From positions 1-24,945 of IMG/VR virus record IMGVR_UViG_3300042923_000764: a stretch of 24,945 nucleotides of DNA; one strand, written 5' to 3'. Source of the stretch: a virus. Within the stretch, counting starts at the first letter, position 1. Each line of letters opens with the position of its first letter. The position numbers were made by a program, and so were the translations under genes. Shown one piece after another: positions 1 to 5,773 of this stretch. The notes beneath the pieces were generated by a model. It made no database searches and was not told the DNA's origin. It worked only from the letters and a program-made list of their open reading frames with translations.

Positions 1-21
1 GTGTCTATTACCTATAAAAAC

Positions 22-51
22 AAAAAAGGTTTCCCTCGTAAAAGGGAAACC
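22..51 (-). terminator. Rho-independent terminator of rpmE2 (host side)
   Basis: A 9-bp perfect stem (GGTTTCCCT at 28-36 and AGGGAAACC at 43-51) with a 6-nt loop is followed, on the minus strand, by a run of six T (A-run at 22-27). It lies about 40 nt beyond the stop codon of the rpmE2 remnant, so it most likely ends rpmE2 transcription in the unlysogenised chromosome. Confidence 0.8.
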
Positions 52-90
52 TCAGAAATGTTATCGAAACAACATTTACATTTATTTGTC

Positions 91-126
91 TTATTCTGCA
101 GCGTTGTTGTCTTTGAGACCGTATTT
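91..126 (-). pseudogene. rpmE2: 3' end of rpmE2 (50S ribosomal protein L31 type B), displaced by prophage insertion
   Basis: Read on the minus strand, this segment encodes KYGLKDNNAAE followed by TAA at 93-91. That matches my recollection of the C-terminus of type B L31 in lactic acid bacteria, which ends in a ...RFNKKYGLKD... motif. The frame closes upstream: a TAA stop lies only a few codons before it, so this is not a complete gene. The simplest reading is that a phage recombined into the 3' end of rpmE2, carried its own copy of the last codons to restore the gene at the other end of the prophage, and left this duplicate here. The rpmE2 terminator (22-51) stays attached to this fragment. 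Identification of the gene from eleven residues is an inference from memory. Confidence 0.65.
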
Positions 127-328: not shown

Positions 329-334
329 GTTCGC

Positions 335-363
335 TTTACAGAGCGAACGTTAGTTCGTATAAT
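335..363 (+). promoter_or_regulatory. Sigma-70 promoter with LexA/DinR box in the spacer
   Basis: The -35 is TTTACA (335-340) and the -10 is TATAAT (358-363), with an exact 17-bp spacer. The end of that spacer is CGAACGTTAGTTCG (344-357), which fits the Gram-positive LexA (DinR) box CGAAC-N4-GTTCG. A further GTTCG half-site at 329-333 (within GTTCGC 329-334) pairs with the same CGAAC in overlapping fashion (GTTCGC-N8-GCGAAC). LexA bound here would cover both promoter elements. Transcription should start near 370, leaving a leader of only about 14 nt that begins at the ribosome binding site (AAGGAG, 370-375). The operon below is therefore predicted to be induced by DNA damage, together with prophage excision. 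Confidence 0.85.
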
Positions 364-383
364 TCTTGCAAGGAGTGATTGAT

Positions 384-674
384 ATGCAAATACCACTTGC
401 GCACCAACGGACATATGCTTTCGAACGATACTACTATGAGTTTATTGAAAGAATGGGTCCAGCACACTTACTTTACGATCAGTTTGTTCGGACGATGGAG
501 AATTTCGGGAAAGCCTACTTTACGGTACCCTGCAGCTACAGCGGATATCCGGAAGAGCTAGCGTTTGTATTCAAGGTAGAGGGCGAAAATTATTTGTTTG
601 ATCATGTCAGAACACAAGATAAGATACTTCGAAAATATGATTCTAGCATTAAGTATAAGCCCGGCGGTAACTGA
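384..674 (+). CDS. Small unknown protein, first gene of the SOS-type operon
   Basis: A 96-aa protein beginning MQIPLAHQRTYAFERYYYEF. ATG 384 is chosen because AAGGAG (370-375) sits 8 nt upstream; the in-frame TTG at 366 lacks any such site. No signal peptide or membrane segment is visible. The protein is rich in aromatic residues near the N-terminus, with a central LLYDQFVRTMENFGKAYFTVP block. This block recalls small enterococcal and streptococcal proteins (DUF5960-type) often found beside Y-family polymerase operons, but that is a weak memory-based match. It is the first gene under the LexA-box promoter and its stop is 1 nt from the next start, so the genes are translationally coupled. Function is unknown; a role in the damage response or prophage induction is inferred only from the promoter. 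Confidence 0.75.
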   Translation: MQIPLAHQRTYAFERYYYEFIERMGPAHLLYDQFVRTMENFGKAYFTVPCSYSGYPEELAFVFKVEGENYLFDHVRTQDKILRKYDSSIKYKPGGN

Positions 675-675
675 T

Positions 676-942
676 ATGAACATAATCAGTCAATTTGAGC
701 AGGGGTACCTATCTTTCTCTGAGTTTATAAATGATTTTCCGTACAGTATTTCTGAGTCACAGGAAGCTTTATACGGCTCAAAATGTGTCGAGTTCTATGT
801 TGCTGTCACTTTGGGTAAAACGGATTGTTGCTATTATGTACAAGCTTACGGAGGCGATCAATGTGAAAACGATGAAAGGTGTAGTTTCGAAGATACGAGT
901 GTTGAAAATGTCGAGGACCCCTTTAGTTCGGTTCTCGCTTAA
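676..942 (+). CDS. Small acidic unknown protein, second gene of the SOS-type operon
   Basis: An 88-aa protein beginning MNIISQFEQGYLSFSEFI. ATG 676 is chosen because it follows the stop of the upstream gene by 1 nt (TGATATG), a typical coupled start; upstream in-frame starts at 598, 604 and 637 have no ribosome binding site and overlap the first gene. It has two adjacent cysteines (DCCYYVQ) and an acidic tail (FEDTSVENVEDPF). Its last 80 nt overlap the third gene in another frame, which is long for a coupled pair. A frameshift that altered the C-terminus cannot be excluded. I do not recognise a family. Confidence 0.55.
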   Translation: MNIISQFEQGYLSFSEFINDFPYSISESQEALYGSKCVEFYVAVTLGKTDCCYYVQAYGGDQCENDERCSFEDTSVENVEDPFSSVLA

Positions 943-1120
943 CGAAGTTAACTGCTTGATTGCTGCACACAGTTTGAACTTCTTAGCCGATGTGGATGAG
1001 GGAATGCAAATTGTGGTTGCTGGTGAGTATAACGATCGCAAACAGTTTGTTGTGAAGAAGTATTCGGTGATTGGCAAGACAAAGATTATGATTGAATTTG
1101 AAAATATCAATGTTCGATAA
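863..1120 (+). CDS. Small protein, possible OB-fold nucleic-acid binder, third gene of the SOS-type operon
   Basis: An 85-aa protein read from GTG 863, preceded by GGAGG (850-854) at 8-nt spacing; longer in-frame extensions upstream of this lack a comparable site. It carries a strand-rich pattern: GVVSKIRVLK, then LVRFSLNEVNCLIA, then DEGMQIVVAGEYNDRKQFVV. This resembles the order of strands in OB-fold domains such as the N-terminal domain of exonuclease VII large subunit (a FSL..., then a DGM.V.V.G...Y..R..Y.L pattern). An OB fold that binds single-stranded DNA would suit an SOS operon, but this is inference from pattern alone. Overlaps the preceding gene by 80 nt. The operon ends at the terminator 71 nt downstream. 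Confidence 0.7.
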   Translation: MKTMKGVVSKIRVLKMSRTPLVRFSLNEVNCLIAAHSLNFLADVDEGMQIVVAGEYNDRKQFVVKKYSVIGKTKIMIEFENINVR

Positions 1121-1190
1121 TCTTTTTGCTTTTCCTATTCAGTAAATTACTATATGATGATTGATATGATGACGGAACATAGTTCCACTG

Positions 1191-1223
1191 GCACGGCATA
1201 TGAGAATATGCTGTGCTTTTTTT
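1191..1223 (+). terminator. Terminator of the SOS-type operon
   Basis: Stem GCACGGCATAT (1191-1201) with ATATGCTGTGC (1206-1216), 11 pairs including one G-U, GAGA loop, then seven T (1217-1223). It is a strong intrinsic terminator on the plus strand, 70 nt after the third gene. Confidence 0.9.
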
Positions 1224-3126: not shown

Positions 3127-4461
3127 CTATTGGACTGTCACTGCACCTTTTCGAATATAGCCAATCCATGTATCTCCATCGTAGATTGAGTAATAAGTAG
3201 CGTCATTTCCAAGTAAGTAAGAGTATTTCGCTGTAACAACTTTCCCGACAAATTTAACATCTGTATTCTTACCAGCTGATGTACTCCAATAAAAATCTTT
3301 CCAGATGTTATAGACATTAGGGCCGCCGTTGATCTTCACTTTCTTATTAAAAGAAGCCGCATTCATCACACGCATAGCATTGGCGTTGATGTAACCTTTC
3401 CAAGAATCACCACGGTATAAGGAGTAGTAAGTCCGACCATTTCCGATCGTGTACTTGTACTTAGCTTTGTAAACAATCCCGTCGCTAATTTTAGACGTAT
3501 TGCCTAGCTTTTCTTTCCAATACAAGTCTCCCCAAATATTATAAGTAGCATTGATCGCAGTTACATAAATGTCGTCAGTTGATACTGCTGGTACTTCCAT
3601 CGTTGCATTCGTATTCAGATACCCCATCCATTCATCTTTTTGATAGAGTGAGTAATACGATACGCCATCACCTAAAGTATATTTGTATTTTGCTCGGTAA
3701 ACTAATCCATCTTCAAACTTACTGGTATTCCCTTTTTTCTCTGTAAAATAGAAATTCCCCCAGATATTATAGTTTGGACTTTTTGCTGATACATAGATAT
3801 CCCCTGCGGATACTGCCTTCAATTCTTTAGCACCGTCAACATTCAGATAACCAGCGAATTTTCCGTCTGAATATAGATCGTAATACTTACTTCCGTGCGC
3901 TGTGAAAATTGATTTTGCTTTGTAAACAGAACCTAATTTTGTGACACCTAATTTTGAACCATAATCCAAATCTGCCCATCGTGTCCAATCAGCTTTAATG
4001 ACTGTTACATTTTTGTCAAATGGAGTGGAAGGATACTTGTCGGCACCTTTCAATCGATAAAAATAAACAGGCAATCCGCTATAGTCTCCCATCCATCCTT
4101 CTGCTGGAGTAGTTGCAATTCCGTTTTTAGTGTAGTTACAATGGATTATATTTTGGTTATCCAAGAAAACACCTGTATGACCTGCAGCACCACCTGAACT
4201 ACCCTTGTAACCTGCTACAAAAATGTCTCCACGCTTGACTGAGCTACGAGATACAGCTGTTAATAAACTTCCTTCTAAAGCAAAAAGTGAATCTGTATTT
4301 CCAATCCCTGTTCCAGAAGGTAAGAAACCTCCTGCAATCAATGAGAAATACACAGCCGAACTACAGTCATAACTATTTGGTCCTAATCGAGAATTCATTG
4401 AATAAGTTACTTTACCTTCTCGATCCTTAAACCATTTGATCATATTTTCAATACTAGCCAA
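3127..4461 (-). CDS. Endolysin A: Amidase_5 domain plus four GW/SH3-like wall-binding repeats
   Basis: Peptidoglycan hydrolase released through the holin to lyse the host. Residues 1-140 match the Amidase_5 (NlpC/P60-like) domain of the pneumococcal phage Dp-1 lysin Pal: SYDCSSA with catalytic Cys33, GHTG with His95, and IIHC with His107. Residues about 150-444 hold four related 65-75-residue modules, each with a YNIW.DFYW-like block (less clear in the first), an AKYKYTLG..YYSLY block, and a W.GY(I/L) ending. They recall GW/SH3 modules that bind wall polymers or teichoic acid. I chose TTG 4461 (444 aa) because AAAGGGGAAG lies about 9 nt upstream and it aligns with the start of lysin B. ATG 4497 (456 aa) has only a poor site. 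The catalytic domain is a close paralogue of lysin B upstream. Confidence 0.9.
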   Translation of the reverse strand: MASIENMIKWFKDREGKVTYSMNSRLGPNSYDCSSAVYFSLIAGGFLPSGTGIGNTDSLFALEGSLLTAVSRSSVKRGDIFVAGYKGSSGGAAGHTGVFLDNQNIIHCNYTKNGIATTPAEGWMGDYSGLPVYFYRLKGADKYPSTPFDKNVTVIKADWTRWADLDYGSKLGVTKLGSVYKAKSIFTAHGSKYYDLYSDGKFAGYLNVDGAKELKAVSAGDIYVSAKSPNYNIWGNFYFTEKKGNTSKFEDGLVYRAKYKYTLGDGVSYYSLYQKDEWMGYLNTNATMEVPAVSTDDIYVTAINATYNIWGDLYWKEKLGNTSKISDGIVYKAKYKYTIGNGRTYYSLYRGDSWKGYINANAMRVMNAASFNKKVKINGGPNVYNIWKDFYWSTSAGKNTDVKFVGKVVTAKYSYLLGNDATYYSIYDGDTWIGYIRKGAVTVQ

Positions 4462-4550
4462 TTCTATCTTCCCCTTTCTTTTCAACCATGCGTCCATGGT
4501 GAACGTACGTCCTTAATTAAAGGATAAACCATAAGAGGTATTGAAAGAGG

Positions 4551-4931
4551 TCAAACCGATAACCAACCTAATCTTTTTGCGATTTCATTAATGAATTCCG
4601 CATCTCTTCTCTTTATAGTAGATTCGCTTAGAAAAGTTTCCGCAGATACAACCGCTATACATTTCTTAGAATGGCCGTTGTAATACTTCACGTAAAATAT
4701 ATCTCTAACATCAAGTGTTGAATCTTCTAAGACACCATTAACTACTCTTAAAAATGATTTGTAAAATAAAATTTGATTCATTGTCCAACTTGGATTTTCT
4801 TCACCTAATGGGTATTCCATATAAGGGTTCCTATCTGTTGCAATAATATCCGAGAATTCTTTAAACGTTTTTTCGATCTTTTTATATTGCCATAGTATAC
4901 TGCGAATGTGTGCTCTGGTTTCATTAGTCAT
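4551..4931 (-). CDS. RinA/ArpU-like phage transcriptional regulator
   Basis: A 126-aa protein whose C-terminal 45 residues look like a sigma-region-4/LuxR-type helix-turn-helix (AETFLSESTIKRRDAEFINEIAKRLG). This resembles the end of RinA of staphylococcal phages (...ISDRTAHRIKRKIISRLAEELG). The centre has an IFYVKYYNG segment where RinA has EYYFNKK. RinA/ArpU proteins activate late transcription and are normally encoded just before the terminase genes. Here the gene sits inside the lysis cassette between two lysins. ATG 4931 is chosen since GGAG lies 8 nt upstream; TTG 4949 overlaps that site. It could instead be a local control gene for lysis. Family assignment is from pattern only. Confidence 0.6.
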   Translation of the reverse strand: MTNETRAHIRSILWQYKKIEKTFKEFSDIIATDRNPYMEYPLGEENPSWTMNQILFYKSFLRVVNGVLEDSTLDVRDIFYVKYYNGHSKKCIAVVSAETFLSESTIKRRDAEFINEIAKRLGWLSV

Positions 4932-4976
4932 TCTGACAACTCCTATCAATGGTTTGCAATTATTTGCGAAATTGGT

Positions 4977-5759
4977 TTAAGGTAATTTGTTGTTGTTCAA
5001 TGCTTTCTGTAAAGCAGAAACCATGCTCGAAACAGGACTAATAATACCGTCTGGCATAGTACCCAATCGTTTTTGGAATGCTTTGATTGTCGCTTGGCCC
5101 ATTAGACCATCTACTGTTACGCCCAAATACTTTTGCAATGCCACAACAACATTTGATCCAATCAAAGAATTATCGAATTGAGCAGCATAAATGTTCTGAT
5201 TAAATTTTTGCTTGTATTGGTGGCTTATAATGCCATCTTTACCCGCAGTATCAAAGTATTCTTGCAAGCGTCTCGCCGTAGCATTGCCGAATTGCCCATC
5301 GATTGCTAATTGAATCATCTGTGGATTGTTTTCGGTAGGTTTAACATCACCAGATGCAACAATTCGATAAAAATGATGCGTTAACCGGGTACTCATGTAT
5401 GAATCATGACTATCTGTATGGATTCCATTCCAATAATACGAACAATGAATGAAACTCTTATTGCTTAGGAAAATACCTGTATGTCCCCCTGATCCGTTGG
5501 ATTGACCAGGAGTACCAGCAACAAAAATATCTCCACGTTTCACTTCTGATCGACTGATTTTTTTCAGTTTAGTACCTGACATTGCAAACAATGTTTCAGT
5601 GTTACCCATCGATCCACTAGGCAGAAATCCACCAGCGATCATGGAAAAGAACACAGCAGAAGAACAGTCGTAGCTTTTGGGTCCTAAGCGACTTGTCATT
5701 GAGTAGGTTACTTTACCTTCACGATCAGTCATCCATTTAATCATTTGTTCAATGTTCAT
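4977..5759 (-). CDS. Endolysin B: Amidase_5 domain plus peptidoglycan-binding-like repeats
   Basis: A 260-aa lysin with the same catalytic domain as lysin A. Both share the (I/E)..MIKW..DREGKVTYSM start and SYDCSSAV (Cys32 here), GHTG (His93) and IHC (His105). The C-terminal half (about 145-260) is unrelated to that of lysin A. It holds two copies of a DG..G..T...LQ pattern and a DGIIS motif, typical of PG_binding_1-like wall-binding domains of enterococcal phage lysins. I start at ATG 5759, with AAAGG 9 nt upstream; ATG 5768 overlaps that site. It follows the holin as expected for the main lysin. Confidence 0.9.
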   Translation of the reverse strand: MNIEQMIKWMTDREGKVTYSMTSRLGPKSYDCSSAVFFSMIAGGFLPSGSMGNTETLFAMSGTKLKKISRSEVKRGDIFVAGTPGQSNGSGGHTGIFLSNKSFIHCSYYWNGIHTDSHDSYMSTRLTHHFYRIVASGDVKPTENNPQMIQLAIDGQFGNATARRLQEYFDTAGKDGIISHQYKQKFNQNIYAAQFDNSLIGSNVVVALQKYLGVTVDGLMGQATIKAFQKRLGTMPDGIISPVSSMVSALQKALNNNKLP

Positions 5760-5773
5760 GTTGATCATCCTTT

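Follow-up and report, generated by a model that had tools for sequence, protein, structure and literature searches.

A conserved SOS-type cassette of small genes, lacking a polymerase, in a temperate Enterococcus prophage

At one end of a temperate Enterococcus prophage lies an operon of the DNA-damage type, i.e., a promoter with a LexA-type box in its spacer, followed by three small genes (g1, g2 and g3) and a terminator, and the question it raises is what such a module may serve when Pfam finds no Y-family polymerase among its genes. The window, by which is meant the whole stretch of DNA analysed, corresponds to a single virus record of 24,945 bases. A sequence-only reading had described a promoter with a perfect box in its spacer, three genes and a strong terminator, all of which were confirmed (Table 1), and had viewed the module as a relative of the polymerase operons of lactic acid bacteria from which the polymerase is missing.

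Table 1. Features of the module and of the adjoining host DNA, in window coordinates.
Feature	Positions	Strand	Basis or remark
Host DNA: rpmE 3' end (ribosomal protein L31 type B) and attachment site	1-126	-	Genome comparison
Third half-site GTTCG, optional	329-333	+	At that position in 24/77 contexts only
-35 hexamer TTTACA	335-340	+	Promoter scan; conserved register
SOS (LexA-type) box CGAAC-N4-GTTCG, CGAACGTTAGTTCG, inside promoter spacer	344-357	+	Exact match; register kept in 77 contexts
-10 hexamer TATAAT	358-363	+	Promoter scan
g1, DUF5960 protein, 96 aa	384-674	+	Pfam PF19385; model with pLDDT 88
g2, 88 aa, very acidic (pI 4.1), no Pfam family	676-942	+	Homologue in polymerase operon L100
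g3, 85 aa, basic (pI 9.8), predicted SSB/PriB-like OB fold	863-1120	+	GTG start; SD GGAGG at 850-854
Intrinsic terminator, 12-bp stem then T run	1190-1217	+	-18.2 kcal/mol, z -5.0

As regards the setting, an E. casseliflavus genome matches the window over positions 1-126 at 94% before a sharp break, which places the start of the prophage at about 127, and a prophage copy in E. innesii matches positions 1-295. The minus-strand ORF at 1-126, which we take to be L31 type B, adjoins a rho-like ORF. In the corresponding E. innesii prophage the module stands at one end and the integrase at the other, in keeping with the distal position initially proposed; this integrase-distal end is also the one next to the attachment site. 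In EG-TP1 and phiEG37K, two E. gallinarum phages whose records are titled complete genome, the module genes lie between the integrase and the lysis genes, which indicates that they travel with the phage. Of note, the same prophage carries two Amidase_5 lysin genes on the minus strand (3127-4497 and 4977-5768), sharing 57% identity over the catalytic domain and differing in their C-terminal parts, with a small ORF (4551-4949) in between. A further minus-strand ORF of 92 aa without family (2490-2768; MKVDKLHYRKVIN...) has 38% identity to the E. casseliflavus gene (L253) that lies just downstream of a UvrX-type polymerase with an SOS box, and homologues near the module in loci L021 and L057.

The promoter, TTTACA-17-TATAAT (335-363), ranks first among promoter-like sites of the first 3 kb, with 11 matches out of 12, and its perfect box conforms to the Bacillus-type LexA consensus and overlaps the promoter. 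The motif GAAC-N4-GTTC occurs once in 24.9 kb against 0.28 expected, a count which taken alone is not significant. Across related loci, though, 77 distinct contexts place the box exactly one base ahead of a TATAAT-like -10 hexamer, and 55 of them have a TTTAC(A/T) -35 hexamer at the same offset; likewise, a box is present within 700 bp upstream in 22 of 30 genome loci of g3 (control bins, mean 0.14/30). Both counts overstate the number of events since related loci are not independent, and the loci in the box counts span many Enterococcus species as well as Tetragenococcus. Because the same register recurs in the 77 contexts and the gene order is kept in many prophage loci, the promoter and its box are not due to chance. 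The third half-site that had also been pointed out does exist, but as it occupies its place in only a minority of these contexts it is not essential. In E. casseliflavus, the strict promoter has four copies, heading a UvrX-type polymerase, DUF5960 alone, YolD-g2-g3 and g1-g2-g3, respectively, while the reversed control pattern has no match; as such, a recognised SOS-type gene, i.e., the UvrX-type polymerase, is found under the very same promoter. The conserved register supports placing the module under LexA (SOS)-type control, with LexA expected to bind the box and DNA damage expected to induce the genes. The leader had been deemed near-leaderless and unusual, which goes too far: g1 has an AAGGAG SD 8 nt ahead of its ATG, and across the promoter set the start codon commonly follows the -10 hexamer at 15-20 nt.

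Downstream, the three genes overlap or abut and are followed by the strong terminator, and 22 distinct full-length loci from IMG/VR all keep the same order and spacing. Purifying selection is seen on g1 (median dN/dS 0.064/1.37), on g2 before the overlap (0.106/0.563) and on g3 after the overlap (0.051/0.777). In the 80 nt where g2 and g3 overlap in different frames (~862-942), the g3 frame is the conserved one, dN and dS being 0.160 and 0.779 when read as g3 versus 0.252 and 0.190 when read as g2. As the overlap changes faster as g2 than as g3, the acidic tail of g2 is probably overprinted rather than selected. A likeness by eye of this tail to an SSB tip was also considered and is disfavoured by the same faster change in the g2 frame. 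The search for DUF5960 that had been suggested bore fruit, g1 matching PF19385 above the gathering score (E=3.9e-9, 37.2 bits vs 24.1), and its confident predicted model has an alpha-alpha-beta4 arrangement with no clear match in the PDB. Neither NCBIfam nor PADLOC gave a match for g1, g2 or g3, a comparison of the window with Rfam returned no RNA, and the literature search found no mention of DUF5960. The genes are not inseparable: g1 occurs without g2 in phages L002, L011 and L026, g2-g3 occur without g1 in L001, L057 and L072, and the presence of g2 and g3 varies among related loci. Since g1 stands on its own in some phages, the module does not have to function as a three-protein unit.

The most telling of the three products is that of g3, in which an OB-fold-like pattern had been noticed. 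Its AlphaFold model is indeed an OB fold (pLDDT 93.9; a predicted rather than experimental structure), and its nearest folds in the VIA search are almost all SSB or PriB, with Z of about 10 and rmsd of 1.4-3 over some 70 residues. At the sequence level, g3 of the window has no match to Pfam SSB over the cut-off; the best of its relatives reaches 24.6 bits for a cut-off of 26, distant Lactobacillales relatives falling just under, and profile comparison connects g3 with one distant relative that nearly matches this family. A PDB sequence search with the g3 profile returned a chance-level match only. Unlike SSB and PriB, whose fold it is predicted to share, g3 is only 85 aa long, lacks an acidic C-terminal tail and appears to be SOS-controlled. 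Among 20 distant loci sampled from lactic acid bacteria, 8 have uvrC immediately downstream of the g3 relative, and this OB-fold family may possibly be tied to nucleotide excision repair. The Lactobacillales loci where a g3 relative and uvrC lie together are L194, L195, L196, L203, L206, L207, L209 and L211. SOS polymerase operons, solo SOS genes and uvrC make up three repair contexts for g3, which points to DNA repair. From the predicted model, g3 would be expected to bind ssDNA, bearing in mind that an OB fold alone is no proof of ssDNA binding.

The missing polymerase is best considered in the light of related loci, where the survey of neighbouring genes that had been advised brought to light polymerase, YolD-like, DUF5960 and SRAP genes in sister cassettes. 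In prophage L072, with an integrase and the same promoter and box, a Y-family polymerase (PF00817, E=1.3e-27) occupies the position of g1 and is followed by g2 and g3. The longer operon of L100 comprises a polymerase, a YolD-like gene, DUF5960, SRAP, g2 and g3, and the more distant relative L210 shows the box, a polymerase, a YolD-like gene and g3. The accessory genes and promoter of the module are thus common to all three polymerase-bearing relatives, and the kinship with polymerase operons proposed from the start holds; the guess of a module without polymerase is essentially right, and related loci such as L072 and L100 account for the absence. Elsewhere, the place of g1 is taken by a YolD-like gene (L001, L057 and L105), YolD-likeness being assigned from a common N-terminal motif together with sub-threshold Pfam matches, whereas in the window no YolD-family subunit is found in the module and g1 encodes DUF5960 instead. 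Other cassettes open with an 86-aa gene and DUF5960 (L021 and L017), with DUF5960 alone or with g3 alone. A Y-family polymerase is absent from 20 of 22 module-bearing phage records, of which those from IMG/VR may be fragments; two GenBank records titled complete genome are among these 20. All 12 host genomes, for their part, encode at least two Y-family polymerases.

It had also been suggested that the module could be new to lysogens, which finds no support, as these gene families and this promoter are also encountered in enterococcal chromosomes, at loci with no evident prophage adjoining; g3 is also found on enterococcal megaplasmids. Some additional small genes deserve mention. In L100, two small genes without Pfam family (L100:360-1074) separate the Y-family polymerase from a box at 356, and the 147-aa one of them resembles, by eye, the first gene of E. 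pallens L110. DUF7694 (PF24746) occurs in the same SOS cassettes, clearly in L076 (3640-3981) and weakly in L107 (5052-5402).

Several other explanations can be put forward for a small LexA-type-controlled operon in a prophage. The module could be the induction switch itself, with g1 (or g2) acting as an antirepressor which inactivates the phage repressor after damage. Tum of phage 186 is a LexA-controlled antirepressor. The box, the prophage location and the small first gene would all suit such a role, for which the LexA-controlled prophage antirepressors of Gifsy provide a precedent (PMC3121763). A switch of this kind, however, sits poorly with three observations: these families and this promoter also occur in chromosomes and in polymerase/SRAP operons, related phages have a YolD-like or polymerase gene in place of the first gene, and g3 relatives lie beside uvrC. 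Contrary to Gifsy and Tum, with which it shares a small prophage gene under LexA-type control, the module belongs to a family also found in non-phage repair contexts and shows no link to a repressor, so that this explanation is considered quite unlikely. A replication helper, in which SSB/PriB-like g3 would, once the prophage is induced, chiefly serve the replication of phage DNA and contribute little to damage tolerance of the host, is unlikely as well: the predicted fold fits, as does the presence of the module in phage genomes, where it is expected to be switched on at induction, but the chromosomal SOS copies without evident phage and the linkage of g3 to Y-family polymerase and uvrC do not.

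More improbable still is an SOS-induced toxin-antitoxin or host-takeover pair, with g1 as a RelE/ParE-like toxin and the acidic g2, encoded directly after it, as the antidote. The weak likeness of the g1 model to HigB/RelE (best Z 3.3, rmsd 3.8 over 68 residues) lies under the noise level stated for the VIA tool, which gave no trustworthy fold for g1, and Foldseek returned no match at E <= 0.001; besides, the partners are not always together, g1 without g2 being forbidden by an antidote model and g2-g3 also occurring without g1. No anti-phage module was recognised by PADLOC either, and the toxin, antirepressor and anti-phage readings are all weaker than that of an SOS accessory cassette. Finally, the missing polymerase and the variable presence of g2 and g3 could be taken as signs of a decaying leftover of a UvrX operon with no present function, which must be regarded as very improbable given the strong purifying selection on g1 and g3, the unvarying spacing in more than 20 distinct loci and the intact promoter and box.

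The explanation we consider probable is that the module is a form of the Gram-positive UvrX/YolD (UmuC-type) SOS operon which lacks the polymerase and is repressed by LexA, borne as an accessory cassette by a temperate Enterococcus phage and aiding lesion bypass or ssDNA handling alongside a host polymerase. Like UvrX-YolD and YqjW-YqjX SOS operons (PMC6511836; PMC12926913), the module has a LexA-type box in its promoter, occurs in prophages and, in its sister loci, shows a small accessory gene adjoining a Y-family polymerase; unlike those operons, the module has no polymerase, begins with DUF5960 rather than YolD and includes the extra genes g2 and g3. With SRAP/ImuB-C SOS operons (PMC3765255), the connection is through the polymerase-bearing relative L100, where SRAP lies between DUF5960 and g2, whereas the module of the window has no SRAP. 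LexA bound between the -35 and -10 hexamers would block RNA polymerase, and DNA damage, through RecA and LexA self-cleavage, would free the promoter so that g1, g2 and g3 are made at once, in the lysogen as well as in the induced cell. The host would supply the Y-family polymerase and the cassette the small accessory proteins, among which g3 would bind at gaps, either to ssDNA itself or to a complex of ssDNA and protein, g1 would hold the slot of the YolD-like subunit or polymerase of sister cassettes, and acidic g2 would travel with g3. It is solely its position that assigns g1 to the YolD slot, and its binding to a polymerase is hypothetical. Overall, the cassette would be expected to assist lesion bypass or the repair of gaps, both in host DNA and in phage DNA under replication. 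In this scheme, the promoter with its box, the operon and the kinship with polymerase operons are supported by sequence comparison, while we infer LexA binding, induction, ssDNA binding, cooperation with host UvrX and any benefit. The module is thus real and conserved, an SOS-type variant without polymerase of a known kind of operon, and the function attributed to it is a prediction.

UvrX-YolD-RecA has been proposed as the Gram-positive counterpart of Pol V, with interchangeable small subunits (PMC6511836; PMC12926913). Extending this, temperate enterococcal phages could carry exchangeable small SOS subunits, namely DUF5960, YolD-like, g2 and g3 proteins, plugging into the UvrX-RecA mutasome of the host and retuning its activity in lysogeny and upon induction while the polymerase stays in the host, a possibility we put forward tentatively and with some doubt. 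The cassettes further offer a ready test set, with one promoter and interchangeable first genes. Gene context connects three small families, DUF5960, g2 and the OB-fold family of g3, with both error-prone and nucleotide excision repair, and suggests that prophages carrying no polymerase of their own may still alter the rate at which enterococci mutate or their survival of damage.
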